Assembly (NCBI GenBank): GCA_021846285.1
Contig: JAJZCB010000002.1
Coordinates: 1 to 64,000 of the forward strand
Direction of reading: 5' to 3'
From: Bacillota bacterium
GTDB lineage: Bacteria; Bacillota; Bacilli; Alicyclobacillales; SLC66
Length of the DNA: 64,000 nt
In this document: positions 23,141 to 62,571 of the stretch, piece after piece
Numbering within the stretch: the stretch's first letter is position 1
Layout: every line of letters begins with the position of its first letter
Program-made: the position numbers and the translations under genes
The notes under the pieces: model-generated
The model's database searches: none
The model's input: the letters and a program-made list of their open reading frames with translations, nothing else
What the model was told of the DNA's origin: nothing

Positions 23141-23183
23141 GTTTTTGTCCCCCGTTCCTTCTATCTTTGAAGGGGGAATTTTT
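23141..23183 (+). promoter_or_regulatory. GTCRCCC leader with RBS hairpin (copy A), before virB4
   Basis: T5, then GTCCCCC (23147-23153). TTCCTTC (23155-23161) pairs with GAAGGGG (23169-23175), with two G-U pairs and a seven-base loop. The 3' arm is the ribosome-binding site of virB4, whose ATG is at 23184. The same architecture recurs at eleven other sites in the window. Confidence 0.65.
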
Positions 23184-25556
23184 ATGCTTCCAAAATCCGC
23201 AATGGCCAACCTGCTCTTCTACGCGAACGAAACACTGGCGGTCTATCGCCTGCCGCAACTCCCCTATGAATATCAAGCGGAGTCCGTGAAACATACGGTC
23301 TACCAGCAGATGGCGATCTTTGTCCAGCAATACAAAGGTCGGGGGCAGATCATCGCCTTGACGCGGCCTATTTCCGCGCAAGATGTGGAACGAAACATGG
23401 CGACCTACAGCCGGCACCCATTCTGGCGCGATCACATCGAGGCCGCCAAGGGCAGTGTGGGATCGACCAGTGTGCAGGAGCGAGTTCTTCTGTTGCCTGT
23501 TCCGAAATTCGATTCGATCTGGGAGTCTGGTGAAATGAAAAAGCGGCTGTTTTCGTTTGGGAAGAAGGAAGCACCCGAAGAGCTCGCCGCGATTCGCCGT
23601 TCAGAGAAGCAACTGTTCGACCGAATTCATGCCTGGATACCAGGACTGAAGCGGGCCGAGATCCGCGATCTGGAGGCTCTCCTTCGCGCCCCTTATTATC
23701 GTGGGTTGGTGGGCATGCCTGAAAAGTGGAACTCTGCGCCAACGGTCGCTTATGGGGATGAGCTGATTTCCTTCCCGATGGAGGCGGACATCGCCGACTC
23801 GGTGGTGTGGGAGGATGCATTCCACCTACGCATCGAACATGAGGATGGACGCACCTCCTACCAGACGGTGTATGGGGTGTCTCATGCGGCAAAGAGCGTG
23901 GAGCCGTTGAATGATGAGTGGATCTACGCCCCGATGGAGAAGGCAGGAATTCCCCTTGATATCGTCGTTCATTTCAACATCCATACGGTTCCCGCGAGCC
24001 GAACGAAAGCCGAGAAGCAAAAGGCCATTGCCAAAAATCAATTCGACGAGTATGCGAAAACAGGGGATGTACCGCAAAAAATGATCGATACCGTGTTGGA
24101 GGCGGAGGAACTGGTGGCGCAAGTCGCGAGGGGCATGGCCGTGATGGACATGCATATCTTGTTTGTGATCGGAGCCGCATCGGAGCAAGAAAGCAAGAAT
24201 TATGATGAGCATTTTCGAGGGCAGATGGATTCGTGGTTTCGGCTGGCGCGACCGCCCGGGGAAACGCTTCGCTTGTGGCAAGCCACCTTTCCCTCAGAGA
24301 AAATGGATGGTGTCGAGAAGACATGGCGCATCCCCTGCGATCCAGCGTACTTGGCGTCGTCGGGCGTACTGGCCACGGGAATCATCGGCGACCCGTCAGG
24401 CATGCTTTTGGGGAATTTGGAGAACGGGAGGCCGGTATTCGTCGATCCGTTCCGTCCGATGCAGGAATTGAACCGGACAGGAAGCTGGGCTTGGATCGGC
24501 GGTCTTGGTTCCGGGAAATCGGTCGGTATGAAGACCACAACAGACGTGATGTTGCAGTGGAAAGCGGTAGGAATGGTTATCTCACCGAAACTTGACGAAT
24601 ACGCGGGATTGCTATCCCGGTGGAAACAGGATAGCCTTCATCTGCGATTCGGGGCCGACAATCTACAGTTCAACCCGTTTCTCCTTGGGAAGGACGCGAA
24701 GGAGTCGCAGCAGATCGCAAGCGGATTTTTATCGACGCTGCTCTATGTCACATCCCAACGAAATGACCAGTATGTCAGCCTCGTGTTGAACAGCGCACTC
24801 CATCGAATGTATCAAGGCAATCGTCAGAACATGGGCGGGTTCTTGACGGCGCTTGAGCAAGAATCGAAAACAGCCGTCACCGAGGAAGAACGGAAAAGCG
24901 CTTACCTGATGGAACGAACACTCAACAATTACAGGGATGACCCGGTTGGACGCACTCTTTTTGGCACGTCCAACCGAGCGCTCGCCCAGTGGCCTGCGTT
25001 GACCGTCGCATCCATTTATGGGTTACACTTTCCGTCCCCAAATCTGCAGCCATCGGAGTGGACACCAGACCAAAGGTTCGGAGTAGCAATCCTATATCTT
25101 GTCGCCCAGTTGGGATTCCGGCGGTTACTGACACTGCCTCCAGAGCAACCCAAGTTTCTCGATATTGATGAAGCTTGGGTGCTTAGAAGTATTCCGGAAG
25201 GGAAAGCTTTGTTGAATACCATGAACCTGATGGGTAGATCGATGAACCTCGTCCTGATGATGGCCATCCAAAATCCTGATGTTCTCTCATCCGCTGACGG
25301 AGAACAAAACGATGATCTTACGGCGAACCTCGGGTGGATCTTTGTCGGAAAACTCGACTCTGCCGCGCAGATTCCGTACGCCCTGCGCCTTCTGCATCTT
25401 CCTGAGGATGATGAGGATGTACGGAAAATGTTCTCTGACTTTTCGTCCGGTCGCGGATTCATGAGAGATCCAATGGGAAGGGTAGGGGTTGTCAATATCC
25501 ATACCTATCCGGAACGGGTGCTCAAAGATTATTTCGATACAACTCCGCGTAAATAA
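23184..25556 (+). CDS. virB4: VirB4/TraC-type conjugation ATPase
   Basis: 790 residues. The C-terminal half has Walker A GGLGSGKS at about residue 438, a Walker B FLDIDEAW at about 657, and the RSMNLVLMMAIQNPDV motif before the final helices; the N-terminal half is the VirB4 membrane-interacting part. This ATPase powers pilus assembly and DNA transfer. ATG 23184 is chosen over the open frame from 23136 because the leader hairpin and AAGGGGG lie just upstream. A decayed second copy of the C-terminus is at 37735. Confidence 0.85.
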   Translation: MLPKSAMANLLFYANETLAVYRLPQLPYEYQAESVKHTVYQQMAIFVQQYKGRGQIIALTRPISAQDVERNMATYSRHPFWRDHIEAAKGSVGSTSVQERVLLLPVPKFDSIWESGEMKKRLFSFGKKEAPEELAAIRRSEKQLFDRIHAWIPGLKRAEIRDLEALLRAPYYRGLVGMPEKWNSAPTVAYGDELISFPMEADIADSVVWEDAFHLRIEHEDGRTSYQTVYGVSHAAKSVEPLNDEWIYAPMEKAGIPLDIVVHFNIHTVPASRTKAEKQKAIAKNQFDEYAKTGDVPQKMIDTVLEAEELVAQVARGMAVMDMHILFVIGAASEQESKNYDEHFRGQMDSWFRLARPPGETLRLWQATFPSEKMDGVEKTWRIPCDPAYLASSGVLATGIIGDPSGMLLGNLENGRPVFVDPFRPMQELNRTGSWAWIGGLGSGKSVGMKTTTDVMLQWKAVGMVISPKLDEYAGLLSRWKQDSLHLRFGADNLQFNPFLLGKDAKESQQIASGFLSTLLYVTSQRNDQYVSLVLNSALHRMYQGNRQNMGGFLTALEQESKTAVTEEERKSAYLMERTLNNYRDDPVGRTLFGTSNRALAQWPALTVASIYGLHFPSPNLQPSEWTPDQRFGVAILYLVAQLGFRRLLTLPPEQPKFLDIDEAWVLRSIPEGKALLNTMNLMGRSMNLVLMMAIQNPDVLSSADGEQNDDLTANLGWIFVGKLDSAAQIPYALRLLHLPEDDEDVRKMFSDFSSGRGFMRDPMGRVGVVNIHTYPERVLKDYFDTTPRK

Positions 25557-25566
25557 TCGATTCGAT

Positions 25567-25607
25567 TTGGTCACCCGTCTCCCTTCTCTATGAGGGGAGA
25601 TTTCTTT
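25567..25607 (+). promoter_or_regulatory. GTCRCCC leader with RBS hairpin (copy B)
   Basis: GTCACCC (25570-25576); TCTCCC (25578-25583) pairs with GGGAGA (25595-25600), which is the ribosome-binding site. A GTG start follows at 25608. Only a short T-run (TTT) precedes it. Confidence 0.65.
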
Positions 25608-25715
25608 GTGAAAAACAAAATTGAGTGGCGCGGTGATCATTACGAGATCTTCGCCAGCGGGGGCGGCATGCAGCATGAGATTTTGGTGGATGAAGCTTCG
25701 TACGAATGTGCATAA
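25608..25715 (+). CDS. Very small protein after leader copy B
   Basis: 35 residues from GTG 25608, mixed composition with a Gly-Gly-Gly turn. Support comes from the leader and its Shine-Dalgarno sequence. A second frame at 25751 (14 residues) follows a strong AAAAGGGGGG site and is too short to call. Confidence 0.4.
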   Translation: MKNKIEWRGDHYEIFASGGGMQHEILVDEASYECA

Positions 25716-25832
25716 AGGCAAGGCATGCTCTGTTTAAAAGGGGGGATTTGATGCAGGAAGAGATGCATAGAAAGATGATCGTTTTCGTGAGTTGAGATGC
25801 GATATGCTTGAGGTGAGAGGGGATGGATGACC

Positions 25833-26120
25833 ATGACGGAAGTCGACACATTAAACCGCAGCATTGTCGTCGGAGAGTTGTTGTTTGTACCCGCGTTCAT
25901 CGTTTGGATTATGCACGGACTCCCGTCTCATGAATGGACAATCAGGCAGATAGTCGCTCACACGGATGCCTTTTTAAGCCATCTTGGTTGGATGGGCTGG
26001 GTCGGTCTTGCGTTAGGACTGTTGGGGTCGATGTTCATTGGCCTGTTGATACAAATTGGTACACAGGAAATCGTTTGGCGATTGAACGAAAGAAGGGGTA
26101 AAAAAAACACGTCTGATTAG
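25833..26120 (+). CDS. Small two-helix membrane protein
   Basis: 95 residues with hydrophobic helices at about residues 12-31 and 52-76, and a charged C-terminus ending RRGKKNTSD. GAGAGGGG fits ATG 25833 better than ATG 25827. Between virB4 and topB; probably a transfer-associated membrane protein. Confidence 0.5.
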   Translation: MTEVDTLNRSIVVGELLFVPAFIVWIMHGLPSHEWTIRQIVAHTDAFLSHLGWMGWVGLALGLLGSMFIGLLIQIGTQEIVWRLNERRGKKNTSD

Positions 26121-26126
26121 AGAGAG

Positions 26127-29927: not shown

Positions 29928-29956
29928 GCGCATCTCTCTCGGGATGCGCTTTTTTT
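29928..29956 (+). terminator. Rho-independent terminator after the resolvase gene
   Basis: GCGCATC (29928-29934) pairs with GATGCGC (29943-29949), followed by seven T (29950-29956). The T-run leads directly into leader copy C. Confidence 0.8.
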
Positions 29957-30016
29957 GTCGCCCGATCTCCTAAAGGTGACGAAGCATTGATCTGCTTCAC
30001 AACGAGAGAGGAGATT
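29957..30016 (+). promoter_or_regulatory. GTCRCCC leader (copy C), before the amidoligase gene
   Basis: GTCGCCC (29957-29963) follows the terminator T-run. ATCTCC (29965-29970) can pair with GGAGAT (30010-30015), the ribosome-binding site of the gene at 30021, but with a 39-base loop, so pairing is less sure here. The stretch from the T-run to AGGTGA matches copies D and E closely. Confidence 0.5.
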
Positions 30017-30020
30017 GGTT

Positions 30021-31910
30021 ATGCCAAGAAACACGGCATCACAAAGCGACCGTCCACGAGTACCTTGTCGCGTATGTACACGTCCCTTGCGAGCACCATA
30101 CAGCGTTATGGCTGGTGTGGGTCCGGTCTGTTTAAAACGACAAAGAAGCAGTGCCCGAGCCCTACTCACCACGTTGTACCGGAGTGGTGAAGCAGAAAAT
30201 CTCATCCGAAGCGGGCGAATAAGCTCTGGCGACGTGAATGCTCTGCAAGACCGTGCCGCTTTGCAGAGCGCAGAGCGGTTTGGCGCAGTTGCCACGTCAG
30301 AGGATAGGCAGTTGTTCTCCGCCCTGTATGGCATGAGCCACCAAGAGATGTCGCTGTTGTCCGATGAGATGGTGCGCACTGTGTACCGGGAACGTCGCCG
30401 ACAGGTTCGACCGTCCGAGTCGCCTGTCGACGTGATGCTTGCGTCGGAAACGCGGGGCGGAGAAGAGAACGTGTCCGTCCAATGGGTCACAGAGCACGCC
30501 GCCATCACGAGTTCCCAAGGTGGGGGCAACTACGTGGTGACTCATGAGACCTGTACGTGTCCGCAGTTTTTGTATCGAGTCCGCTTGCATCCGGAGTTGT
30601 ATCCCAGTGGATGTCGGCATATGCAGGCGCTGCAGTCGGCCCGGCAGATGGTGGAGGCGAGTCGCTCCGCGTCAGCAAGACAGCAGGCGGTGGCATGGTT
30701 GGAGACGCATCCGGAGACAGCGCCGCCTTCTGCAGAACCTGTGTTGCCGGCGCCGACCGCAGAGCCCGTTCCCATCACGCCACCGCGTGGGGCACCAATC
30801 ATCCCTCCAGAACCAACGCGACCGTCGCAGGTGCAAAATACGCTACGGATCCGGCCTCAGTTCGCCTCGGCACAAATGACGGACGATGCCATGCGCGAAG
30901 AGATCTTGAATACCTGGCGGGAGACACGGGCGTTCGATGGCTTGTGGATGCAAGAAGACGAAGCTGCATTTGCTCGTCTGATGGAACAGGCAACCGCCGA
31001 CTGGGAGCTGGTGACGGACGGCTCCGTACTGGGGGGCACGGGCAACACATTTGGCGTTGAGTTGGAAATGAAGTTTCGGAGCGGAGACGCCATGCGTCGA
31101 GCGGTATTGGAGATGTATCAGGACGGCCTGACCAACCATCGGGAGCAGCAACGCTACCACGAGCCGGGGTCAGGAGGGATGTGGGTTCCCACTCGCGACA
31201 GATCCTTGGGATCGTATGGTCTTGAAATGGTGTCGCCCGTACTGCAAGACCGACCGGAAGATTGGGAAGGATTGCAGCACATCCTGGATGTGGCCAAGAG
31301 GCACGGTGCGTATGTCGATGCGGGGTGTGGCACGCATACCAACATTGGCGCTGGACCGCTGGATTCCCGGACGTTCAATTGGCAGCGCTTGGCTCGCGTG
31401 GGCGTTGCGCATGAAAGGACGCTGTACCGGATGGGTGGGGCAGATAGCGAACAGTTTCGGCAAACCGGGGAGCCCGGTCGGCATCGGGGCACCTTCTATG
31501 TGAACCCATTCGACCGGGTGGTGAAGATCGGAGACCGCACATCGCCCATCGTGGCCCGAAATCGTTTGGGGGGCGACCACACCAAAATCTTCAACTGTAC
31601 GCATGATAACCGGATCGAGATGCGGTATCCAAACGGTACGCTCGACCTGCAGCAAATTCAGGCCAATGTTATCGTCAATAATGCGATGGTCCATCAGGCC
31701 GCGGCGATCAAAAAACGGATGCCGCAGGATCGAACAACACCAAAACTGAGCGACGCAGCGCAGCATGATCGATTGCATCGTCCGTACGGATCGCCAGCGG
31801 TAGCTTTGAATGAAGAACAAGCGTTCAAGCGATTTCTCGACTTTTTGGGCACGTCGATCGATCGGAAGGCGGCTGCGTGGCTCTGGAAGCGAGGCCGAGC
31901 ACTGCAGTAA
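30021..31910 (+). CDS. DUF6011 - SWIM zinc finger - putative amidoligase fusion protein
   Basis: 629 residues with three modules. Residues 15-40 match the DUF6011 ribbon (CRVCTRPL ... GVGPVC). Residues 170-205 have a SWIM-like C-x-C-x(n)-C-x-H finger, TCTCPQF and GCRHMQAL. A Pro-rich linker follows. From about 340 a putative amidoligase domain (COOH-NH2 ligase, glutamine-synthetase-like fold): FGVELEMK, a DAGCGTHTNIGA loop and EMRYPNGTLD. Such enzymes join a glutamate or an amine by ATP. With the cyclotransferase at 34308 it could form a tag-and-untag pair. The reaction and substrate are inferred. Confidence 0.7.
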   Translation: MPRNTASQSDRPRVPCRVCTRPLRAPYSVMAGVGPVCLKRQRSSARALLTTLYRSGEAENLIRSGRISSGDVNALQDRAALQSAERFGAVATSEDRQLFSALYGMSHQEMSLLSDEMVRTVYRERRRQVRPSESPVDVMLASETRGGEENVSVQWVTEHAAITSSQGGGNYVVTHETCTCPQFLYRVRLHPELYPSGCRHMQALQSARQMVEASRSASARQQAVAWLETHPETAPPSAEPVLPAPTAEPVPITPPRGAPIIPPEPTRPSQVQNTLRIRPQFASAQMTDDAMREEILNTWRETRAFDGLWMQEDEAAFARLMEQATADWELVTDGSVLGGTGNTFGVELEMKFRSGDAMRRAVLEMYQDGLTNHREQQRYHEPGSGGMWVPTRDRSLGSYGLEMVSPVLQDRPEDWEGLQHILDVAKRHGAYVDAGCGTHTNIGAGPLDSRTFNWQRLARVGVAHERTLYRMGGADSEQFRQTGEPGRHRGTFYVNPFDRVVKIGDRTSPIVARNRLGGDHTKIFNCTHDNRIEMRYPNGTLDLQQIQANVIVNNAMVHQAAAIKKRMPQDRTTPKLSDAAQHDRLHRPYGSPAVALNEEQAFKRFLDFLGTSIDRKAAAWLWKRGRALQ

Positions 31911-35231: not shown

Positions 35232-35254
35232 GTGCCTTCGGAGGCGCTTTTTTT
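35232..35254 (+). terminator. Rho-independent terminator after the GGCT gene
   Basis: GTGCCT pairs with AGGCGC around a TCGG loop, followed by seven T (35248-35254) that run into leader copy D. Confidence 0.75.
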
Positions 35255-35286
35255 GTCGCCCGATTCCCTGATAGGTGAAAGGGGAG
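35255..35286 (+). promoter_or_regulatory. GTCRCCC leader with RBS hairpin (copy D)
   Basis: GTCGCCC (35255-35261). TTCCC (35264-35268) pairs with GGGGA (35281-35285), with one G-U pair, loop of 12 bases. GGGGAG is the ribosome-binding site for GTG 35295. The loop sequence GATAGGTGAAA matches copy E. Confidence 0.6.
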
Positions 35287-35294
35287 TTTGATGC

Positions 35295-35675
35295 GTGGAA
35301 CGAAACTTCGAACAAATCGCTCATCTAATGAGCCGACTACGAGTTGCCTTGGTTCCGGACGAATACACGCTTCAGCGAGACATCCAGACAGTGTTGGACC
35401 AAAATGGGTTTTCCTATCAAAAGGAATGCCTGCTTGCGCCCCGGAATCGCGTTGATTTCCTAGTCGAAGGCGGCATTGCAATCGAGGTGAAGTGCGGTCG
35501 GCAAAAACCAAATTTGACGCGTGTGCTGGCCCAGTTGCACCGGTACGCCGCATCTGAACAGGTTTGTGCGCTGTTACTTCTTGTGGAACGGAATCTGGTT
35601 GGCGTGCCCAAACAGATTGAGGGGAAGCCGTGCAAGGTGCTGGGGCTTCATCGGTTATGGGGGGTGGCGTTATGA
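35295..35675 (+). CDS. PD-(D/E)XK nuclease-like protein
   Basis: 126 residues. The core RVDFLVEGGIAIEVKCG (residues 52-68) has the D ... E-x-K pattern of this nuclease superfamily, with a following helix holding Gln/His. GTG 35295 is eight bases after GGGGAG. It overlaps the SNF2 helicase start (ATGA), which suggests a two-protein nuclease-helicase complex. Confidence 0.7.
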   Translation: MERNFEQIAHLMSRLRVALVPDEYTLQRDIQTVLDQNGFSYQKECLLAPRNRVDFLVEGGIAIEVKCGRQKPNLTRVLAQLHRYAASEQVCALLLLVERNLVGVPKQIEGKPCKVLGLHRLWGVAL

Positions 35676-37465
35676 GCGTTCTGGAACAGGACATGATGAT
35701 TCCATCTTATCTGCGGGCACCAAATTTAAACGAACGACGCTACGGAACCGTGCGATACGACGAGCAAAACGCCACATGGATCGTGGAAGCGGAGCCGGTT
35801 GTCATCGAACTGGCGAAACGGCTCTTTCCGTCGAGCAATGTTCGTATACCCGGTCAGGTTCGGTTTCGCGCCAATCGTCGCAACACGGGCGAGTTAAACT
35901 GGCTGATGCTGCGGTTTCCGCTGAATGTAGCAGAAGTTTCGCAGTGGGAGCAAGCGCGACAGGAAACGATTGATCATGTGGTCTATCGCGCGGAACTGAA
36001 CCGCCAGCCACGCCCAGCAGAACCGCTCGGCATGAAAGCGGAATTGACTCCGTTTCAAAAAGAAGGGCTGGCGTATCTCCTTCACAACCGTCGTTGCCTG
36101 CTGGCCGATGATATGGGGCTTGGGAAAACAGTGCAGGGGCTGGCCATGCTGTCCACGGCGCAGCTCTTTCCAGCGCTGATCGTCGTGCAGCCGCACATGA
36201 TCACCAATTGGGTGCGAGAAACGCTGCGGTTTGTGTCGGTGCCTTCTCCGCCTGATGAAGTTGTCCTTTTTGAGGATGAGACAACGATACGAAATCGGAT
36301 CCACGTCCTGCGTGGCAAGAAACCTTACGAATTGCCTCCCGCCAGCCTGTTTGTGATCCATTACGGGTTGATCGCTTCGTGGAAGGATCGACTGATCGAA
36401 GCGGGATTTCAGGGTGTGATTTTCGATGAGATTCAGGAACTGCGGCATACCGGCACGCAAAAATACAGTGCTGCCTCGTTGCTGTCCGAATCGTGTTCCA
36501 ACGTGATTGGGCTGTCCGGTACGCCGATTTATAATTTCGGCGGCGAAATGTGGTCAATCATGAACATTATCGACTATCACTGTCTTGGCGATTGGGAGAG
36601 CTTTACGCGGGAATGGTGCTTTGGCTATGGGAACCAACAGATTGAGAAACCGGCACTCTTGGGCGACTATTTGCGGGCGGAAGGGCTTATGATGCGCCGA
36701 CGCAAGGACGAGGTGTTAACACAACTCCCAGACAAACGTCGCGTCGTGCAGTCGATTGATTCCGATCACAAGGTGTTCGATGGGTTGATCGAGCAGGCCG
36801 TGCAACAGGCCCTGGAGTTGGATGGCATTCAGGATCATCTTGAAAGGGGACGGATGACGCGGCAGATCATCAACGATACTCGCCAGGCGACTGGGATCTC
36901 AAAAGCGCCGTTTGTGGCAGATTTCGTGCGCCTGCTGCTTGAGGCTGACGAGAAGGTGCTGCTCTTCGCCTATCATCACGCGGTTTTCGACCTCTATATG
37001 GAGAAACTGCGTGACTTTCACCCTGGAAAAGTTACCGGTCTGGAAAATCAGAAGGAGAAGGACGCGGCGATCGACGCATTCATGAACGGCGAAACGGACC
37101 TGCTGCTGATCTCGTTGCGCGCTTCATCTGGTCTGAACCTGCAGCGGGCTAATGTGGTCGTTTTTGGGGAACTCGATTGGAGTCCGGCGATCCATTCACA
37201 GGCGGAAGATCGGGCGCATCGGATGGGGCAGACCGATTCGGTGCTGGCGTACTATCTGGTGAGCGATGCAGGAACGGACGAGGACATGCAAGAAGCGCTT
37301 GGGTTGAAAGTGAGTCAGTTTGTCGGCCTCATGGGCGACAAGGCGGAAACGGATGACGAACGGCTGCTCGGGCAGGCGGCCGCGAACCAGCACATGCAGC
37401 GGGTGATCGAGCATCTGAAGATGCGAGGGAAAAAGGGAAAACACGGGGTGGCGAGAAACGCATAA
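35672..37465 (+). CDS. SNF2-family DEAD/DEAH-like helicase
   Basis: 597 residues from ATG 35672. Motif I DDMGLGKT near residue 145, motif II as DEIQE near 251, GLSGTP near 280, and the C-terminal helicase domain with the arginine-finger region EDRAHRMGQTD near 513. SNF2 enzymes translocate on double-stranded DNA. The partner nuclease gene overlaps it. Such pairs are found in phages and ICEs and in defence islands; the role here is not known. Confidence 0.85.
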   Translation: MSVLEQDMMIPSYLRAPNLNERRYGTVRYDEQNATWIVEAEPVVIELAKRLFPSSNVRIPGQVRFRANRRNTGELNWLMLRFPLNVAEVSQWEQARQETIDHVVYRAELNRQPRPAEPLGMKAELTPFQKEGLAYLLHNRRCLLADDMGLGKTVQGLAMLSTAQLFPALIVVQPHMITNWVRETLRFVSVPSPPDEVVLFEDETTIRNRIHVLRGKKPYELPPASLFVIHYGLIASWKDRLIEAGFQGVIFDEIQELRHTGTQKYSAASLLSESCSNVIGLSGTPIYNFGGEMWSIMNIIDYHCLGDWESFTREWCFGYGNQQIEKPALLGDYLRAEGLMMRRRKDEVLTQLPDKRRVVQSIDSDHKVFDGLIEQAVQQALELDGIQDHLERGRMTRQIINDTRQATGISKAPFVADFVRLLLEADEKVLLFAYHHAVFDLYMEKLRDFHPGKVTGLENQKEKDAAIDAFMNGETDLLLISLRASSGLNLQRANVVVFGELDWSPAIHSQAEDRAHRMGQTDSVLAYYLVSDAGTDEDMQEALGLKVSQFVGLMGDKAETDDERLLGQAAANQHMQRVIEHLKMRGKKGKHGVARNA

Positions 37466-37734
37466 AAATGCCACCCGTGGGTCCGCATCGTGGAGAGGCG
37501 CCGGGTGAACTATTGTGTCCGTGTCAGGGGTGGACTTTCCAGACCCGAACAGCAATCCGAATCTGTGGAGGGAGAGTCAACGGTTCGGTGTGGCCGTGCT
37601 GTAGCTGATGATGCAACTGGCGTTTAAGCGTCTCCTCGCACTACCTGCACATTTCAAAAAAATTCTTCGCGATCAATGAGACCTGGTTGCTTCTCGGCAT
37701 TCCTGAGGTCGGACGCTTTAATAATCGATGATCT

Positions 37735-37990
37735 TAATGGGGCGCAGCATGAACCTCGTGTTGATGATGGCCGTGCAAAATCCGGATGTCCTGCTCCCAA
37801 AGGCTGGAGAAACCAATGACGATCTGGCGGCGAATATGGGTTAGTTTTTTATTGGGTACCTCACATAGTCGGACCAGGTCGCAGACGCGGTTCGGTTGCT
37901 GGGTCTTCCGGAAGGCGATGATTATCGGGAGCGGCTATCTGCGGGAGCCGCTCGGGTGGATCGGCGAAGTGCAATACGACCGATACGGTC
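37735..37990 (+). pseudogene. Decayed C-terminal fragment of a second virB4
   Basis: From ATG 37749 the frame reads MNLVLMMAVQNPDVLLPKAG, close to the intact virB4 (residues after GRS), then meets two stops, VADAVRLLGLPEGDD, and after a frameshift LREPLGWIGEVQYD, which matches the end of VirB4. It is a remnant. Between 37466 and 38246 I see only this; a 10-bp hairpin (37442-37479) overlaps the SNF2 stop, and the remaining 500 bases hold no recognisable gene. Confidence 0.7.
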
Positions 37991-39571: not shown

Positions 39572-39612
39572 TTTTTGTCACCCGATTCTCCGATAGGTGA
39601 AAGTTGATCACT
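39572..39612 (+). promoter_or_regulatory. GTCRCCC leader, degenerate (copy E)
   Basis: T5 then GTCACCC (39577-39583), ATTCTCC and GATAGGTGAAAG, the 5' two-thirds of copy D, but the GGGGAG arm is missing. A weak hairpin AATATT ... AATATT lies before the T-run. No open frame starts directly after it; the helicase gene begins 220 bases on. Confidence 0.45.
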
Positions 39613-39658: not shown

Positions 39659-39824
39659 ATGCGCCATTTCCTAGACGCCAGCAACTATCATCACACGCAA
39701 TCAACATGGTACAATTAGACAAGGGAAATTCATGGAGTGCCCGATGGGATTTTTCTGAGATTTTCGTATCGTTCTGTTGCAGATTAGACGGGGCATTTTC
39801 ATACCTGCATTGGAGGGTTTTCGA

Positions 39825-43004: not shown

Positions 43005-43048
43005 TTTTGTCACCCGCTCCTCCGCTGGATAGAAAGGGGTGTTTATAA
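43005..43048 (+). promoter_or_regulatory. GTCRCCC leader with RBS hairpin (copy F), gene lost downstream
   Basis: T4 then GTCACCC (43009-43015). CTCC (43020-43023) can pair with GGGG (43036-43039); alternatively CACCC pairs with GGGTG (43037-43041). The ATG at 43049 opens a frame of only four codons. The fragment of the surface-protein gene follows, so the original gene seems to have been lost. Confidence 0.5.
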
Positions 43049-43260: not shown

Positions 43261-43424
43261 CGGAATTCTCGATTGCCGGTTCCGTCCATTACGCCGTATA
43301 CTGGAAGGGAGTGCATTGTTATCAAAACAATTGGCTTCGACTGCCGTTGATTATTTGATGTTTACTGATTATAATGAAATCAACAAAGGCGAACGGGAAT
43401 CATTTAGAAGGGAGTTGATTCAAA

Positions 43425-44655: not shown

Positions 44656-44682
44656 TTTTGTCACCCATTCCCCCTTTGTATG
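44656..44682 (+). promoter_or_regulatory. GTCRCCC leader, partial (copy G)
   Basis: T4 then GTCACCC (44660-44666), ATTCCCCCT as in copy I. The matching GGGGG arm is missing, so no hairpin forms; the next start is 100 bases on at 44779. A separate small hairpin CACCC-GCAGT-GGGTG lies at 44725-44739. Confidence 0.45.
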
Positions 44683-47700: not shown

Positions 47701-50700
47701 CTACTCATCCTGAACCAGACGGGGCAGGAGGTTCCGTCTGGCGTGATCACGGTGGACTGGGGTTCGTCATCCGCCACGCCTCCGCCTTCGTCTGGGCCGA
47801 CGCTGACGCTGTCCGCCGCATCGCCTTCGGAACCGGTGGGCACACAGGACCAGGTGACGGCTGCGGGCACGAATGTTCCGTCTGGCGACACCATTGTCAT
47901 GACGCAGATCAACACAAATGGCGGCGATACGTTTGGGTCTGCAGGCTCGACAACCGGCAGCGGTCAGTACCAAGTGTCGAGCACGAGCGATCCGTATACT
48001 ATGTCAGTAAGCGATGTGTCCGGACAAAACGGCTATCAAGCCACATATGGAGCCATCGTCTTCAACGGCAACGGTCAGAATGTAGCCCAATCAAGCAATG
48101 TAGCCATCACTTGGGGCGTCAATAACGCGCCGCCATCGATTACAATAACCGCCACTCCACAAACGCTGCAAATCAACAATGCGTCTGTGTTGTCTGTGTC
48201 CGCAAGCAACGTGCCGATGGGCGACTATGTGATCGTGTATCCCAACAGCCCCAACAGCGGAACATGGTGGACGAATTCGGCCGTTTTTGTAGGGCAGCAG
48301 ACGAACGCGTCCGGATCGTACAACGCCACAGCGAGCGTGAGTCAGTCGCAGCCTACTTCCGTCACGTACTATGCCGTCGTAGAAAATCCGAGTGGAGGGA
48401 ATCCGCCAAGCAGCTTCGTGGTGGCCAATAACGTAACGGTGACATGGAATCCGCCCGCTGCAGGGGTGAGCCTTAGCACCACGACGCCACTGCTGGCTGT
48501 CGGTCAAACTGGGTCGTTTACCATGTCTCTGTCGTATCTGCCGAGCGGCTACCAAGCAGACATCTTTACAACGAGCGGTCAGTATTTCGGTGACTACTGG
48601 AACTACACTGGTAATTATTTCAGCGGAAACATCGGCGAATACGTACCATCTCCAGCCTCCGCGACGACCGAAGGATTCTACGCGGTGATCAGCAATGGAG
48701 CGGTCTCGTCATCTGCGCCACCGTCAAGCAATTACATCGCCATCACTTGGCAACTAAATCCAACTGTGACGATGACTGCAACTCCCACAAACCTATTCAT
48801 CGGACAGACGAGCCAATTCTTACTGTACCCGCACAACATCCCAACATGGCCTCCCTTTATGATCGGCATCGAGGATGTAACAACGGGGCAGATCGTGTAC
48901 AGTTCCAACAACACTCAGACTACCTACGATGTATCTAGCGCAGTAGAGAACCAAGCCACAACGCAGGTCTATGCACCTGTGGTATTTGCCGCTGGGGCAA
49001 CCACCCCCACTACCAACAACATTATGTACACTGGCCCGAGTGTGACAGCGCAGTGGACAAACCCAACGGCGCAGATTACTGCTTCAGCCCCAAGCTATCT
49101 TGTTGGGCAACAGGCAACGCTCACGGCTAGCACGCCGAATATGCCGAGCGGAAGTATGTCCAATAGCTACGAATTGCAGATCAACGACCAAGGGCAGAAG
49201 GATAGCCTAATCTATTACTGGGCGTATCCGTGGGGCTACTACGCAGTGAATACCCTCGATTCTACTGAAAGCTCAAATTCTAATCCGTTCAGCGGCCCGG
49301 CGGTATTAGGGGTAGCAGGATCGGACTCGTACACCGCTCAGTTCAAGTGGTGGATCGGTACTGGAGATGCAGCATCGGCCAACTCTGCTCCAGTCACGGT
49401 TACATGGGGCAACGCGCCATCAGGGATCAGCCTGACTGCTGCTCAGACAAACCTTGCGCCCGGCCAAAGCACAACGCTTACAGCCACAACTACCGATGTG
49501 CCTGCTGGATTTTCCATCAAAGTGACTGACTTAAACGGAGCTGGCACGCTGAGCGGAACTAATACGCAAACGAGTTCCACGTCACCATTTTCCACGTCCG
49601 TGTACTCGGCCAATTCGCAGACCGTGAACTATCAAGCGACGCTCTACAATGCTTCGAATCAGGTGGTGGCCACATCCGGTACCGTCTCCGTGACGTGGAT
49701 CGCGCCGCTTAGTGTGTCGCTGTCGGCCAACCCGACGAGTCTCTATGTGGGGCAATCGTCATCCTTAACGGCGCAGACGGTGAACATGCCTGCCGGTGAT
49801 CAGATCGTCATTAGCGATGTGGGCCAGTATCACACGTTGTCCGGCGCGAACACCGCCACGTCCGGCAGTTCGCCGTTTCAGACAAGTGCCGTCTCAAATT
49901 CTGCAGGTACTGATTCGTACGTGGCGACCATCGTCAATAACGCGGGCCAGACGGTGGCCACGTCAAGCACCGTTTCCGTGACATGGGTCGCACCGCCGAC
50001 GCTGAGTTTGACGGCAAGTAGCCCATCGGCGCCGATAGGAACATCGGTCACGCTCACGACGGCGGGGGCGAATTTCCCGGTGGGCTACACGGTACGGATT
50101 CAGGATCAGAGTGGTGATGGCACATTCGGTGGCCAAAACACAGCAACAGGAAGCACCGATCCGTTCGCGACGCAGGCAACAGACAACCGGCCGCAGACCG
50201 TGATCTATCAAGCCGTGGTTATGGATAGCGCGGGTGCGCCAGTGATCACGTCCAACACCGTCAGCGTCACTTGGCAGCAGCCGTTTCTGTCTGGCGGGAT
50301 CGTTTCCGGCATCTACTTGGATCCTGGGTATCCGGGAAGCAGCAAGGCTCCAACCAATATGTGGCTCTCGGCAGACATGAACAACCCGTCGATTCTCTAT
50401 GCGCCCAGCGACTTCTGGTTGCCCTATCTACAACAACATGGGTGGGACGGAAACGAAGCGGATCTCCATGAGTCGCTAGGGCAGGCCATGGGCGGAGCGA
50501 TTGACTATCAACCCGACGTGAATTCGGCTCCGCAGGCAGGGCAAGCGACGGGTTCGTTCGTGGCGCCAAGCGGAAAAACGTATTACCTGTACGGGTTTGG
50601 GCAAAGTGGATTGAATCCGTGGGGCGCAACCCCATGGGTTTGGGTCCGGCCTGAGTCGGGATTTGGCTTTCGTTTTCTGTGGCAAGGAACAGCTGCCAAT

Positions 50701-51327
50701 CCGCCTGTTGGAGGCACGGTGACGTGGACGCTCGTGAATCCGGACGGCGCTTCGAGAACATGGTCAACCAACTTTCAAAACACTGCAACTGGGCCGGCGC
50801 AGTGGGTCTCGGTGGATTCCTGGATGCACCACGCCTCGCCGATCGAAGAGTCGCGGACGATGATCGCAGAATTGAACTCTTCCACATTAAAGATCATGGG
50901 TCAGGCGGCGGCAGAGTATATTTCGGCGTACACGTCCGTACCCCACTATGTATTTGTAGGGGGCGGAAGCACTTCGAACGGAAATAATATTGAGACGGCC
51001 GCTTGGTCGCTCAGCAGCAGTGCGGCGACCGCGCAGGTAGATGGGGCTCAAATCAATGTAGAGATTCAACTGCAGCTTAAAGACGGCACGGTGTTGACGA
51101 TGAATCAGCCGGATATGGCTACGCTCTGGAATTTGCCGCCTCGGTTCCTCATTTCAATAGGCGGCGACACGTTCACTCTCAAAGTGGTGCAGGAGTTGAA
51201 AAACAACGGAGGTACAGTTGGCATAGGACCTCAAACGGGCATTATTACCACGATGCCGTCTGGTTCCGGAATGCCATCTAGTTCCGGATCGAGTACGAGT
51301 ACAGGAACGATCACAACCGCTCCTTAG
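44779..51327 (+). CDS. Giant secreted protein with PQQ-like propeller and Ig-like repeats
   Basis: 2182 residues from ATG 44779, GGAGGAGGG nine bases upstream. Signal peptide ending SVSALA-A. Residues about 60-440 resemble a beta-propeller of PQQ type (repeated blocks with YIAVGTAS and SPVYTG). Residues about 440-1833 hold some thirteen units of 90-150 residues, each ending in a T-V-S-V-T-W-like strand followed by a P and a short T-L-S-L-T-A-like strand, with a conserved NVPxGD turn: an Ig-like array. The last 350 residues (after GGIVSGIYLD) are a separate domain. No LPXTG or transmembrane anchor. Likely surface adhesin of the donor cell; the role in mating is inferred. Confidence 0.75.
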   Translation: MKSPIKRFAIVAVSLLMALSGSVSALAATVEFGNNSSRTHANGISDPQSWNQASELKSFTYGGQALPMGGGNGTAMGQGSMLYFPVSAPGDSPTGSGYLTVWTMGTGAPKQAWGGAKYIQGVSNSSPLILSNGDVYLAAGGTLYGFQSNGTPVANVLPGNIAKNPYIYQNQVVSYPLYANGLIWVSSQNGYLFAINPQTLQQAFKPVDIGSRMDGSPTLVYGANNTPYIAVGTASAPNNQGGTGTLYLVSLSGQIVSHINNPAGTGTAIASSPVYTGGGVAWNDISGNVFWAQISGGQFTNVRTWTTKQSGLVTNLEPGYYGGYFILPQSTSDKTEVVNVGTVGSPIEYFTNKDGANNVGSPEISANNVYVPDGQGNVNSFPVSSLGTPSTAQDNLAFAMGFSSSNLTNANEQMLPAANGQTLPTLSYETSAGLQIWQNTSPSSVTLSGAGSTGASSTSTVSASVGGTVTLDANGTSIPIGDAILVTQTPTTTPGTLTSQGQGGQTQVVSPTMTTFNPSYQFRPTATSSTAQSVQVQARIIVAATGQIVGQASNVLTVTWAAAATLSLTVTPTASQTTGQAFQLTAGTTNAAGDHVVFTQSGTLANNGGAGTLSGNFQSNQSSLTYPAQTSSTYQYNPTATSSQTGTETVTATLLNSSNQPVLNASGQPLTKSVSVTWNVPAAAPSITLAVSPTTSQVTGASFTLTATAQNIVSGEVIQIAQTTSASPNTLSGGTYVQWVSPGAYASYVFHTSAVSSAAQTVTYQASIYTVSGQLVPSNAVSAQWGPSGVNDGFSSTQNGSLTDAAQTATGSSVNVQVVASPRVVLTLSAQNVLFAQTGTASIQVTTDQYGYASMTVDEQGGQAGLLKITASSDTAYYVPASDTITWPASNVTLTATANGQNYGAGQTASVTTNTPVSFAANVTNPPANNYTLEIADLGGNSTLGGQNSVFADNASTLSAQANSASALTDQYEALLILNQTGQEVPSGVITVDWGSSSATPPPSSGPTLTLSAASPSEPVGTQDQVTAAGTNVPSGDTIVMTQINTNGGDTFGSAGSTTGSGQYQVSSTSDPYTMSVSDVSGQNGYQATYGAIVFNGNGQNVAQSSNVAITWGVNNAPPSITITATPQTLQINNASVLSVSASNVPMGDYVIVYPNSPNSGTWWTNSAVFVGQQTNASGSYNATASVSQSQPTSVTYYAVVENPSGGNPPSSFVVANNVTVTWNPPAAGVSLSTTTPLLAVGQTGSFTMSLSYLPSGYQADIFTTSGQYFGDYWNYTGNYFSGNIGEYVPSPASATTEGFYAVISNGAVSSSAPPSSNYIAITWQLNPTVTMTATPTNLFIGQTSQFLLYPHNIPTWPPFMIGIEDVTTGQIVYSSNNTQTTYDVSSAVENQATTQVYAPVVFAAGATTPTTNNIMYTGPSVTAQWTNPTAQITASAPSYLVGQQATLTASTPNMPSGSMSNSYELQINDQGQKDSLIYYWAYPWGYYAVNTLDSTESSNSNPFSGPAVLGVAGSDSYTAQFKWWIGTGDAASANSAPVTVTWGNAPSGISLTAAQTNLAPGQSTTLTATTTDVPAGFSIKVTDLNGAGTLSGTNTQTSSTSPFSTSVYSANSQTVNYQATLYNASNQVVATSGTVSVTWIAPLSVSLSANPTSLYVGQSSSLTAQTVNMPAGDQIVISDVGQYHTLSGANTATSGSSPFQTSAVSNSAGTDSYVATIVNNAGQTVATSSTVSVTWVAPPTLSLTASSPSAPIGTSVTLTTAGANFPVGYTVRIQDQSGDGTFGGQNTATGSTDPFATQATDNRPQTVIYQAVVMDSAGAPVITSNTVSVTWQQPFLSGGIVSGIYLDPGYPGSSKAPTNMWLSADMNNPSILYAPSDFWLPYLQQHGWDGNEADLHESLGQAMGGAIDYQPDVNSAPQAGQATGSFVAPSGKTYYLYGFGQSGLNPWGATPWVWVRPESGFGFRFLWQGTAANPPVGGTVTWTLVNPDGASRTWSTNFQNTATGPAQWVSVDSWMHHASPIEESRTMIAELNSSTLKIMGQAAAEYISAYTSVPHYVFVGGGSTSNGNNIETAAWSLSSSAATAQVDGAQINVEIQLQLKDGTVLTMNQPDMATLWNLPPRFLISIGGDTFTLKVVQELKNNGGTVGIGPQTGIITTMPSGSGMPSSSGSSTSTGTITTAP

Positions 51328-51347: not shown

Positions 51348-51391
51348 TTTTTTTGTCACCCACCCTCTTCTTTATAGAAGGGGGTGTTTTC
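51348..51391 (+). promoter_or_regulatory. GTCRCCC leader with RBS hairpin (copy H), before the virB6-like gene
   Basis: T7 then GTCACCC (51355-51361). The stem is 11 bp: CACCCTCTTCT (51361-51371) against AGAAGGGGGTG (51376-51386), loop TTAT. The GGGGG is fully paired and ATG 51392 stands five bases after the stem. Strongest hairpin of the set. Confidence 0.75.
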
Positions 51392-54300
51392 ATGGCCGCA
51401 TCGGTCCTGCAGCAATCGTCCAACCAATTGTTAAACTGGAACCATTTCTTGGTCGTGTCACCGCCATCGGGCTTCCTCAACGTCGGTTCCGCTTTAAATG
51501 GCGCTTTGACAACAATCGGGAACTTGTTCATGGGGTTAGGAACATTTATTTGGTCCGTCGTGTCCTGGTTGTTTCAGATCGCTTTAAATCCATCTTTCAT
51601 CATGGATCCCTTGTTTAAAGACATGGCCAATGTCTACAAATTCGCCTATCAGGCATTTTTCTTACCGCTATTGCCGTTATTGGCGGCTGCCGCGCTCCTC
51701 TATTTGATCTATTTTTATTTCAGAGGGAAGCACGCACAAATGGCTCGCGTGTTCGCCAGCAGTGCCTTGGCTGTGCTGATCGTGTTAGTGGGATTCTTTG
51801 AATTTCCTGTCCTGTTCCAAATAGCGGACACTCTCGCCATCGGAACGACCTCTGCTGTGATGGGTATGCTGGAGAGTACACTGTCAGGGGGCCAGGTTAC
51901 CGCCTCCAATCAAGCGATCGGCGGACTCACGAACACGTACCTCCAAGAACCGTGGCAACTCATGCAATTTGGGTTTATCTCCAGCAACCCCAGTCAGTAC
52001 GGGCTATATGGCGGCGTGACCGGAACGATGTTCAGCACTCTGGCCAGCAATTTGAATCAGGTGGATCCTTCTGTGACAAGCGCAGTTCTGCAGGAACAGT
52101 TTTCTACCGCTTATCCCAATCTGATCACGGTTGCCAATCCACAGGCAACGGCAGGTTCTGGCCTTCCGTCCACCATGACGGTGCAGGGGCTGGCTACGGA
52201 CGTAAACGGAGCGCTCGTTCCTGACTGGCGGAACGTTTTCTATGTGTACGGCGGCCAAAATCAGGAAAGTGCCATTGCTAAATCATTCTTCGTCCAAGGG
52301 CAGCAAACGGTGGTCGGCGCTGCCAACCCGTCCAACACGTCCGGAAATCTTGATGAGAACCATTTCTTTAACGGGACGGGGAATCTGGTTCTGATCATCC
52401 TTGCGATGATTACCTCCTGTATCCCTTTGGCGTTCGCTTTGTTCACAGGGGCGCAACTTCTGTGGCGAGAATTAAACTTTTTCTTCAAGCTGGGGCAGGG
52501 GATCATCTCGCTTCCCTTTTTGATGGTTCCTGAGGCGGGTCCGGCTCACACCAAGAAATGGCTTGGTCAAGCGGCTGGCCACTTGATCGAGCGATTCGGT
52601 ATAGGGGTATATTTTGCCATTGCCGTGGGGGTGGGAAGTCTCCTGGAGCAGGTGGTCACAGGGTTAATCGTCGGCAATGCGGAGCTCGGTATGATGATCT
52701 CTATGCTATTTCTGGCCTTCTGGTACCTCTCGGCGTTCATCTATCGGGAAAAACTGTTTTCTATGACAGTTCATCCACTCGCCGCTACCGTGGCGCAAAA
52801 CAGCGGAATCGCAGGGCGTGGGTACGCGCGAGGTTTACAACAGGCGGACGAACGGAAGCAAGCCATTATGGAGGCGACGAAGAAGGAAAGAGAGCGTCGA
52901 GAGGAAGAACGAAAACATCCGAAAGGAACGTCTCAAAAGCGGGCGAAAACAATTCGACCGTTTCAGCGAGAACAAAAGGCAACCCAACCGTCGTCGGAGC
53001 GGAAGGGGGGGCGCGCGCCAAAGCAGTATTCCGGGGGGAATGTTCCGTTATCTCAAGAGGATTGGGAAAAAGAACTGGCGGCAATGCACACGCATGATCC
53101 TGTCTTGCAGTCCATTTCACGCGATAAGGAACGCTTCGATGTGGGAAGCGCCCCGGTTGCGGCAGAAGCCAGTGTTCATATCGAAGAGCGGCGCAATGAC
53201 AGGGGAGCATCGTCCGTGATTCGTTACGCCGACGCGGTGACGTGGGCGAAGGGCGCGGGAATGCTGACGCACTTATCGATGAAACGGGGACTTGGAGCCA
53301 GTGATGCGCAGGTGAGCGCACTGATGGGGCAAATGTCGAAAGATGGCGTGATACGGCGGGATGGACACGGGTTCTGGCGGGCCGCTGTTCCCACGAACGA
53401 CGAGCAGGTTCCTGATACTGCTGCGACCAATCCGCTTCAGGACGACACGTCAACGAAAGACGAGGCTAGTTTGAATCAGGGCGAGGCGCAACCTGAAAGC
53501 GCAGCATCGATGTCGAACGCAGAGATGCATCGAGAGGGCGCCGATTCCTACAATCAAGCGGTATCTTGGGTTCAGGGCCACGGAGCTGCCACGCCATTCG
53601 TTCTGGCAAGGCGACTGGGCGTTGAAGAAAGTGCCGCTACAACGTTGTTGGGACGGATGCAAGAAAACGGCGTGGTGCAAAGAGGAGTGGGGCAATGGTG
53701 GAAGGCGATTCCGGCCAACAGCGATGAACCGGAACGCGGTGCGGAGACTGTTAATGCGGGTGGAGAATCGATCATCTCTACGCCTGATGTGTCCGGGAAC
53801 GATTTGGAAGAACTGCGTGTCGAAAAACGATCGCCGATCGCCGAGCCATTAGAAACGATCCATCATGAGGCATCAAAAGGGTTGGAAGAACCAAATCGCA
53901 TTACGCCGCCACAACAGGTGGCCAGTTCGATAGACGCGCAACGGGCTTCGGTTTCGCGCCAAGCAATAAGGCCACCCGGAAATGCGGGTGTGGGGAATCG
54001 CGCGACAATGCAGACGCCGCCTGCCACACCATCGGTCGTCACCAACCAGCAAGTTGGGCGGCTCAAACAGTTCACGCGCGCTGTGGGAAATACCACCGTA
54101 GTTGCAGCACGATCCGCCCCGGTACAAATCGCGGCGGAGGCGGCACACGTCGGGGTTCGCGTCACCAAGGGAACGGCAAAACTGGCGTTCAAAGGTGGGG
54201 CGGCCACAACGATGGCAGCGATTCGAGCAATGGAGTGGCACTCAGACCGCATCGGAACGCCTCCAGGCAACGAGACGTTCACACAGGAATTTAAGCGTCG

Positions 54301-54514
54301 GATGCTTCGCCCATCGCGTCTCGAACAGCGTGTGGGAATGGCGACAAAGACCACGCGGAATGTCGGGGGAGTGGCGGCAAGAGGGGCGAAAGCAGCTGCG
54401 CGGCAGTTGAATCGCATGCCGACGGGCCGACAGTCCCGTGAGACGGTTCGGGTCACCGGCGAGACGGTGAGGAATAAGGCGAAAGGTATGGCGAAGGATT
54501 GGTTTCGAGGGTAG
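51392..54514 (+). CDS. VirB6/TrbL-like conjugation channel protein with winged-helix repeats
   Basis: 1040 residues from ATG 51392. Residues about 50-470 hold seven or eight hydrophobic helices, the layout of the VirB6/TrbL channel component. The cytosolic tail is charged and ends with long low-complexity stretches. Inside it are two repeats, about residues 609-666 and 718-773, whose pattern (A-V-x-W-x-x-G ... L-x-x-R-L-G-V ... L-L-G-x-M-x-x-x-G-V-V) is that of an FtsK-gamma-type winged helix. Such domains bind DNA in FtsK; here they could orient transfer DNA at the channel. The VirB6 call is from topology and context. Confidence 0.6.
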   Translation: MAASVLQQSSNQLLNWNHFLVVSPPSGFLNVGSALNGALTTIGNLFMGLGTFIWSVVSWLFQIALNPSFIMDPLFKDMANVYKFAYQAFFLPLLPLLAAAALLYLIYFYFRGKHAQMARVFASSALAVLIVLVGFFEFPVLFQIADTLAIGTTSAVMGMLESTLSGGQVTASNQAIGGLTNTYLQEPWQLMQFGFISSNPSQYGLYGGVTGTMFSTLASNLNQVDPSVTSAVLQEQFSTAYPNLITVANPQATAGSGLPSTMTVQGLATDVNGALVPDWRNVFYVYGGQNQESAIAKSFFVQGQQTVVGAANPSNTSGNLDENHFFNGTGNLVLIILAMITSCIPLAFALFTGAQLLWRELNFFFKLGQGIISLPFLMVPEAGPAHTKKWLGQAAGHLIERFGIGVYFAIAVGVGSLLEQVVTGLIVGNAELGMMISMLFLAFWYLSAFIYREKLFSMTVHPLAATVAQNSGIAGRGYARGLQQADERKQAIMEATKKERERREEERKHPKGTSQKRAKTIRPFQREQKATQPSSERKGGRAPKQYSGGNVPLSQEDWEKELAAMHTHDPVLQSISRDKERFDVGSAPVAAEASVHIEERRNDRGASSVIRYADAVTWAKGAGMLTHLSMKRGLGASDAQVSALMGQMSKDGVIRRDGHGFWRAAVPTNDEQVPDTAATNPLQDDTSTKDEASLNQGEAQPESAASMSNAEMHREGADSYNQAVSWVQGHGAATPFVLARRLGVEESAATTLLGRMQENGVVQRGVGQWWKAIPANSDEPERGAETVNAGGESIISTPDVSGNDLEELRVEKRSPIAEPLETIHHEASKGLEEPNRITPPQQVASSIDAQRASVSRQAIRPPGNAGVGNRATMQTPPATPSVVTNQQVGRLKQFTRAVGNTTVVAARSAPVQIAAEAAHVGVRVTKGTAKLAFKGGAATTMAAIRAMEWHSDRIGTPPGNETFTQEFKRRMLRPSRLEQRVGMATKTTRNVGGVAARGAKAAARQLNRMPTGRQSRETVRVTGETVRNKAKGMAKDWFRG

Positions 54515-54539
54515 GCGTTCCGAAAGGAGCGTCTGTTTT
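54514..54539 (+). terminator. Rho-independent terminator
   Basis: GGCGTTCC (54514-54521) and GGAGCGTC (54526-54533) pair around a GAAA loop; TGTTTT follows and leads into leader copy I. Confidence 0.75.
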
Positions 54540-54584
54540 GTCACCCATTCCCCCTATGAGTAAGAAAACCGAGGGGGAATTTTT
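54535..54584 (+). promoter_or_regulatory. GTCRCCC leader with RBS hairpin (copy I)
   Basis: T4 then GTCACCC (54540-54546). ATTCCCCCT (54547-54555) pairs perfectly with AGGGGGAAT (54572-54580), 9 bp. ATG 54585 follows. GGGGG is inside the stem. Confidence 0.75.
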
Positions 54585-59351: not shown

Positions 59352-59499
59352 GGAGGGATTCCAACGGAAACGTACGCGCGGCGGTGGGCATGTTCCTGGA
59401 GATAGGCATGCGCGTCAAACGCAGCAAGAAAATCCGCAAACGTGCGGCATAGTTTGTCCGCCATTCCCATCCGTGAGACGAAAAAGGAGTGTTCAACCA

Positions 59500-61020: not shown

Positions 61021-61047
61021 GTTGCCGGCGAGGGGAGGAGGATTACC

Positions 61048-62190: not shown

Positions 62191-62224
62191 CGGAACGTCA
62201 CTTTCTGTCGTTGGGAAAACAGAC

Positions 62225-62262
62225 TCTGGTCACCCGACACCCCTCTGCGTGAGAGGATCAAA
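62225..62262 (+). promoter_or_regulatory. GTCRCCC leader, partial (copy J)
   Basis: GTCACCC (62229-62235), without a T-run, then CCTCT-GCGTG-AGAGG (62242-62256) forms a five-pair hairpin. Only a ten-residue frame follows. The region 62263-62475 holds no gene I can support; a 24-residue frame from TTG 62319 is the best candidate. Confidence 0.45.
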
Positions 62263-62475
62263 ATTAAGTGGTTAGCGCGCATTCCAAATATGGCGTCTGA
62301 TTGAGGGGAGAATGGATGTCCTTGATAGACGGGGAGCGCGGGTCTCTGCAGGAGTGCTGCGCCAACATTAGTGAGTTGTATGACGCTCGCTTTTAACGGT
62401 CACTATATTGGCGCAAGTTCTACAAACTGCAGCCAAAACCCCGCTGAGTGGAAGCAGCCGTAAAATAATTGTGAC

Positions 62476-62498
62476 CCTCTTAAATTGAGAGGTTTTTT
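62476..62498 (+). terminator. Rho-independent terminator
   Basis: CCTCT (62476-62480) pairs with AGAGG (62488-62492) and is followed by T6 (62493-62498), directly before leader copy K1. Confidence 0.65.
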
Positions 62499-62535
62499 GT
62501 CCCCCGTCTCCCTTGTAAGTGAAGGGAGGTTTTTT
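62493..62535 (+). promoter_or_regulatory. GTCRCCC leader with hairpin (copy K1)
   Basis: T6 then GTCCCCC (62499-62505). CTCCCTT (62508-62514) pairs with AAGGGAG (62522-62528), followed by T6, so this one also looks like a terminator. No gene starts here; the next copy begins at once. Confidence 0.65.
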
Positions 62536-62571
62536 GTCACCCATTTTTCTTATAGCAAAGGAGATGATCAT
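62530..62571 (+). promoter_or_regulatory. GTCRCCC leader (copy K2), before the virB2-like gene
   Basis: T6 then GTCACCC (62536-62542), TTTTTCT and AAAGGAG (62557-62563), the ribosome-binding site for GTG 62572. The stem is weak in this copy. Tandem with K1. Confidence 0.5.

Follow-up and report, generated by a model that had tools for sequence, protein, structure and literature searches.

The 64,000-nucleotide window analysed here opens a contig of 105 kb (JAJZCB010000002.1) from a Bacillota bacterium of the order Alicyclobacillales (assembly GCA_021846285.1). By its Pfam matches, this DNA carries a type IV secretion element: they include a VirB4-type ATPase, a coupling protein like VirD4, an SLT transglycosylase, a T2SSE ATPase and, weakly, TcpE, besides large serine recombinases and an actin-like protein. 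Many of its genes are headed by one kind of leader. Behind the upstream gene come, in 5'-to-3' order, an A/T-rich stretch, a word of about 8 nt (TTGTCACCC here), a hairpin, a T-run and the start codon. The hairpin is a pyrimidine/purine stem of 8-12 bp that sits flush with the word and whose 3' arm is the Shine-Dalgarno sequence (SD). This leader looks like a shared on/off switch of the whole element.

An earlier account of this DNA (the sequence-only reading) had listed twelve GTC(A/G/C)CCC sites in the window, and we found every one of them by position, all on the plus strand (Table 1). The list is incomplete past the window, where the contig holds at least five further copies (65476, 73308, 78985 and 81044, besides a weaker copy at 69586 and another heading a gene that begins near 68289). 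The extended form TTTTGTC(A/C/G)CCC occurs ten times on the plus strand of the window and never on the minus strand, accompanied by two TGGTC variants; it was absent from all of 60 order-2 Markov simulations, in which a looser TT(T/G) form averaged 0.23 copies with a maximum of 2. The bare heptamer is not enriched (31 matches versus 31.7 expected in the window). Across the entire 3.9-Mb genome, the strict leader start TTTTGTCVCCCRNYYYYY matches 12 times in forward and 0 times in reverse orientation, with 0 matches to a reversed-pattern control, and all 12 lie on this contig.

Aligning 38 sites on the GTC revealed 2 bits at T(-1), G1, T2, C3, C5 and C6, with sharp edges on both sides. The word leads into a tract of pyrimidines; a loop, in which T is the preferred letter, separates these from a purine tract, the SD. 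The proposal that stems vary while pairing is kept proved well founded. Among 20 leaders, 77% of pair counts were paired and 8 of 9 pairs carried changes on both sides; a MAFFT alignment of virB4 leaders from different elements, in which the 5' arm is out of register, did not enter these counts. Stem covariation in the same leaders was 0.48 compared with 0.327 ± 0.029 after shuffling, and every slid register scored far lower. When arms were swapped between 22 leaders of the window genus, own partners paired best (mean -14.7 versus -10.7 kcal/mol; 0 of 5000 permutations as good), as they did among 31 leaders of other elements (-15.7 versus -12.5; 0 of 5000). In the 54 motif-bearing genes, the SD had a pairing probability of 0.87; for the 271 remaining genes with an SD in these elements it was 0.55 (p = 7e-16). 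On these comparative grounds, the leaders fit the general class in which the SD is, by predicted folds, the 3' arm of a stable hairpin maintained by compensatory change, with a predicted effect on translation.

Table 1. Leaders in the window; the text names each by the position of its heptamer. z, hairpin fold against shuffled controls.
Leader	Coordinates	Strand	Details	z	Bits
virB4-like gene	23143..23183	+	TTTTTGTCCCCC; hairpin GTTCCTTC/GGGGGAAT, T5, ATG 23184 (gene 23184-25556)	-1.9 (borderline)	40
Truncated HNH/AP2 homing-endonuclease gene	25566..25607	+	GTG 25608-25715; SD-masking hairpin	-2.8	
Amidoligase gene	29953..30020	+	ATG 30021-31910; stem GATCTCCT/AGGAGATT	-2.8	
35291/35295 open reading frame, upstream of SNF2 gene 35630-37465	35251..35290	+	terminator 5'; ortholog L069:9243 in G011	-0.3	
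Decayed, before UvrD-like gene 39777-42818	39573..39604	+	heptamer and loop retained, SD arm gone		27.8
Weak, short reading frame	43005..43048	+	ATG 43049; fold not beyond chance		39.5
Decayed, 2,182-residue adhesin-like protein	44656..44680	+	ATG 44779-51327; SD partner arm gone		14.6
Large protein 51392-54514 (earlier label virB6-like)	51351..51391	+	hairpin CACCCTCTTCT/AGAAGGGGGTG, TTTT, ATG	-3.5	
54585 open reading frame	54536..54584	+	stem ATTCCCCCT/AGGGGGAAT	-2.2	
Degenerate, short frame only downstream	62225..62300	+	insertion before SD		16.6
Orphan	62495..62530	+	hairpin CTCCCTTGTAAGTGAAGGGAG, T6; terminator 5'; second leader directly 3'	-2.35	48.9
Small protein GTG 62572-62955 (earlier label virB2-like)	62532..62571	+	weak hairpin over AAAGGAG		

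Folding each leader against shuffled controls gave significant hairpins at 25570, 29957, 51355, 54540 and 62499, and past the window at 65476 and 78985, with 23147 borderline. The twelve window sites comprise six SD-burying hairpins, three decayed sites (39577, 44660 and 62229), two weak ones (43009 and 62536) and the orphan. The SD masking earlier ascribed to intact copies is therefore seen at 6 of 12 sites, 'intact' covering only about half of them; the SD stem at 35255 is present and folds no better than chance. The 29957 stem carries a long apical insertion that forms an extra apical hairpin. The 62499 leader is without a gene of its own, since it adjoins the next leader at 62536, and this tandem pair looks like the remnant of a leader that lost its gene, possibly a homing-endonuclease gene. 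Among the gene labels, Pfam supported VirB4-like (AAA_10), amidoligase and SNF2 and also found TcpE-like and SLT matches; virB6 and virB2 were left unsupported. The idea that most T-runs close an upstream terminator fared poorly: in the window, clear ones lie directly before 29957 (GCGCATC..GATGCGC T7), 35255 and 62499, another lies about 12 nt ahead of 44660, and an automatic test upstream of leaders of all elements found terminators at 4 of 44 sites. A fragment in the 43009 region is related to the large adhesin-like gene; at 43116-43358, a short frame resembles the N-terminal part of that giant gene (44779-51327), which lies behind it.

A second T-run, between the SD and the start codon, is specific to leader-bearing genes. 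The T fraction of this spacer is 0.61 in motif-bearing genes versus 0.28 in other genes of the same elements, with A depleted, and its longest T-run averages 3.7 versus 1.5 (p about 3e-14). A G-C-closed hairpin followed by T4-T6 resembles an intrinsic terminator in build, less clearly so in several window leaders, and a terminator scan placed leader hairpins as the best or near-best matches of their regions; the 51355 hairpin is the first terminator-like match listed for a 19.7-kb region. SD masking as predicted earlier holds on these folds, and because a T-run follows the hairpin immediately ahead of the start codon, transcription attenuation has to be weighed beside the translational role first proposed. 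A conserved cis antiterminator partner upstream of the word was not seen in the leader alignment, and no antiterminator domain appears among the 25 of 62 Pfam families listed for 61 element proteins.

We found the same leader in a sister species of the same genus (G011), on scattered contigs of a similar element whose virB4 is 85% identical. Orthologous leaders, before the endonuclease gene after virB4, the amidoligase gene, the nuclease-SNF2 pair and the 54585 frame, keep word and pairing with changed stem sequences. The amidoligase stem reads AAACCCCC/GGGGGTT in G011, different from its counterpart here yet paired; the ortholog of 54540 (L130:1517) reads GCCCCCTTTTGG/CCGAAAGGGGGC (z -5.4), and that of 25570 (L066:8496, minus strand) shows compensatory stem changes.

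The leaders are not specific to transfer genes: five G011 copies head HNH_3/AP2 proteins and two on the window contig head homing endonucleases, at 25570 (a truncated copy) and at 65476, just past the window. Relatives of these proteins are phage HNH homing endonucleases; HNH_3 scored above cut-off in three of four, and AP2 in one and more weakly otherwise. Sharing the leader, the endonucleases would come under the same control. The window element has a leader directly on gene 73348; at the orthologous gene of G011, on contig C16, such an endonuclease comes in between. The gene behind 65476 (L031:3514-4172) starts at ATG 65514 with 38 codons in a frame other than that of its domains (the frame of 65564), and its first codons look frameshifted for that reason. 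Some G011 leaders (L131:3846, L131:4327, L132:618 and L129:340) form a subfamily: their loops are GCCRATNGGTAGRA-like, they show no significant hairpin, and some stand before ParB-like frames; this is perhaps another element using the same word.

Searching the order with virB4 placed the leader-bearing lineage in two families, with five genomes in all. On contigs of other genera found through virB4 (27% identity to the window VirB4), over-represented 8-mers are the arms of the same hairpin type. A motif-free scan showed many genes to be preceded by SD-masking hairpins in G003, G006 (three elements), G017 and the Alicyclobacillus acidocaldarius plasmid pAACI02, and an SD hairpin precedes virB4 itself, both in the window element and in six relatives. 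Upstream of hairpins detected without any motif, we identified words de novo and compared their information with shuffles: AATTGTCCYAC in G003 (14.1 bits versus 7.8-8.4), AAATTTCCCAC in G006_C6 and C36 (12.7 versus 8.5-9.3 in C6), TTTTTCCACC in G006_C37 (13.2 versus 10.0-11.0) and TACTTACCC in G017 (11.6 versus 9.2-10.1). pAACI02 has four convincing hairpins and no significant word (8.0 versus 7.2-7.8). The three elements of the one host genome G006 use two words, TTTTTCCACC in C37 and TTTCCCAC in C6 and C36. VirB4 of G003 and G006_C37 are 80% identical and their words differ; those of C6 and C36 are 82% identical and the word is shared.

Words are conserved inside an element and vary from one element to another. 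That related elements carry different words at the same position makes the earlier suggestion of the heptamer as a recognition word more likely. The sequence-only reading had also named beforehand one of the things on which its idea hinged, conserved copies outside this element, and such copies exist in G011 and in elements of other genera. Strict word patterns gave only chance-like matches in 85,000 genomes and IMG/VR, the loop-subfamily pattern gave none in 400 genomes of the class, a virB4 search of IMG/VR returned no relative, and distant virB4 genes of Bacillus and Paenibacillus plasmids are without the leader. The exact word appears confined to the window genus, the architecture being the widespread part.

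The explanation we favour, with confidence about evenly balanced, is a single cis-acting leader RNA deployed across the element, whose hairpin would block translation and possibly transcription until an element-encoded factor reads the word flush with the stem. As part of this explanation, the leader family would be used throughout type IV secretion/conjugative elements of the Alicyclobacillales. By default, the hairpin would block initiation on read-through transcripts, and hairpin and T-run may also terminate part of transcription just before the start codon. The factor, an RNA-binding protein or small RNA, would bind the word at the stem foot, hold the hairpin open and turn on all leader-bearing genes together. 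Because two words coexist in one host (G006), and because words are near-invariant inside an element while adjacent stems vary freely, the reader is more likely encoded by the element than by the host. We infer all three steps (the drop in translation, the termination of transcription and the binding of the word) from comparison. More tentatively, with the balance against it, we propose a new class of element-wide leader in which one hairpin is both intrinsic terminator and SD mask, unlocked by the element-encoded factor, and suggest that drift of the word from element to element would insulate related elements in the same cell.

Several observations weigh against the switch that we favour. 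Evidence is comparative throughout, drawn from sequences and predicted folds. Several window leaders have shorter T-runs; a subset of G011 leaders (L131 and L132) retains the word and folds no better than shuffles; and the virB4 leaders of G006_C36, G006_C6, G017 and G005 have the hairpin without a clear word. The search for a factor was likewise unrewarding: none of the proteins shared by and confined to leader-bearing elements is RNA-binding-like, and an antisense of the word gave no outstanding candidate in the elements. Nor did covariation speak for a UCAC/GUGA loop contact that would account for the heptamer (0.145 versus 0.137 shuffled).

Two candidates were discarded along the way. An H-type riboswitch pseudoknot (heptamer-loop UCACC/GGUGA) is visible by eye at some sites and was ruled out because covariation is absent. 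For an antisense RNA that would act in trans through the word's complement, there are two off-leader copies on the window contig and none convincing elsewhere. Those two near-complements, at 57594 (GGGCGACAAAG) and 57733 (GGGTGACAAAG), lie 139 nt apart on the plus strand, opposite a long minus-strand frame, and are the only plus-strand matches to the complement pattern on the contig.

The main rival to an element-wide switch is translational coupling, which we consider rather unlikely. A ribosome finishing the upstream gene would open the hairpin, each gene would be translated only if its upstream neighbour is, and the word would be spacer or stop-codon context. Spacing agrees with this: where the upstream reading-frame end was found, the median gap from stop codon to word is 10 nt, the gap is often 2-5 nt and stays within 40 nt in 30 of 42 cases, and in G003 most words lie 2-10 nt past a stop codon that often overlaps their A/T-rich start. 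However, several leaders of the window element follow a terminator or sit 25-60 nt from the stop codon, and coupling leaves unexplained why the word is nearly invariant within an element and changes between elements. An element-specific word between stop codon and hairpin at nearly every junction would also suit a processing site: an endoribonuclease encoded by the element would cleave between genes at the U-run/GTC word, leaving the new 5' end shielded by the hairpin. Yet the SD would stay buried after such a cut, and neither the T-run before the start codon nor the SD-specific pairing is accounted for; we judge this unlikely, and less likely than coupling.

Less probable than either is a promoter, with TTGTCA serving as -35 box, the -10 box lying 17 nt downstream, and transcripts that begin inside the leader and escape the hairpin as in T4 late genes. 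TTKGTC does resemble TTGACA, a T followed by purines occurs 17 nt downstream in the window set, and some leaders come after terminators. We nevertheless rejected this reading of the spacing, since the putative -10 box lacks a final T, is accounted for by the SD itself (AGAAAGGAGG) and, by inspection, has no counterpart at that spacing in leaders of related elements; transcripts starting there would miss the SD, and promoter scans showed no enrichment of sigma-70-like sites. About on a par with processing, we regard it as improbable that the leader is a module boundary, a common beginning of gene cassettes that duplication, gene conversion or homing endonucleases have spread, preserved by copying and not by regulation. 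The leader-bearing endonuclease genes, the C16 endonuclease at the 73348 ortholog and the tandem leaders at 62499/62536 all fit such spread, but stems that differ strongly with pairing and word kept go beyond what copying alone yields.

No Rfam family scored above its gathering threshold in the window or five related loci, and in the open-access literature we found no described family matching the leader, although an earlier description elsewhere is possible. In Bacillota, attenuator leaders such as the LicT/SacY RAT sites and those of LoaP and rplJL are opened by RNA-binding antiterminators or translation factors. The rplJL leader (PMC4538822) and LoaP (PMC12691694) are reported examples. Leaders of this kind have a terminator-like hairpin overlapping or adjoining a recognition site, whereas here a single hairpin holds both SD and terminator tail and is repeated at many genes of one element.

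The nearest published parallels that we found each share part of this design, and neither has all of it. In cluster K mycobacteriophages, SAS/ESAS elements are short repeats just upstream of many start codons, nearly all in one orientation; half of the SAS have an upstream inverted repeat, whose consensus differs between subclusters (PMC3203893). Our leaders resemble them as a short sequence repeated before many genes of one element in one orientation, with a group-specific consensus. They differ in that the SAS 13-bp repeat (GGGATAGGAGCCC), absent from the leader alignment, lies at the initiation site with its inverted repeat upstream, whereas in our leaders the word comes first, ahead of a hairpin that takes in the SD and finishes in a T-run; the carriers are actinophages there and conjugative elements of Bacillota here. 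T4-type homing endonucleases and late genes (I-TevI, segB, mobE and soc) have a stable hairpin that buries the SD and silences read-through transcripts (PMC2988022), and homing endonucleases are among the genes concerned in both systems. In T4, a late promoter inside the hairpin frees the SD; we found none here, with no -10 conserved across elements and no enrichment in promoter scans, and our leaders use one word per element before many transfer genes besides endonucleases.

An SD hidden in a hairpin is already known gene by gene. The same hairpin and word before many genes, with a word that differs even within one host, would amount to an element-specific post-transcriptional regulon. Such a regulon would account for the silence of large transfer operons despite long read-through transcription, could let co-resident elements avoid cross-activation, and would make the word a concrete handle for finding an RNA-binding factor.

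Some further features are of note. Beside the SNF2 gene, a degenerate second virB4 fragment (37458-37937) has 47% identity and eight stops. In G003, the T2SSE ATPase gene (L149:16267-18765; C101 56267-58765), which has an SD-masking leader, matches the Hom_end_hint and LAGLIDADG models and therefore probably carries an intein. At the start of the window contig lies a GerA-type spore germination gene (2954-4483), and the related plasmid pAACI02 (NC_013207) has a germination operon at 17667-21728; germination genes may therefore travel with these elements.

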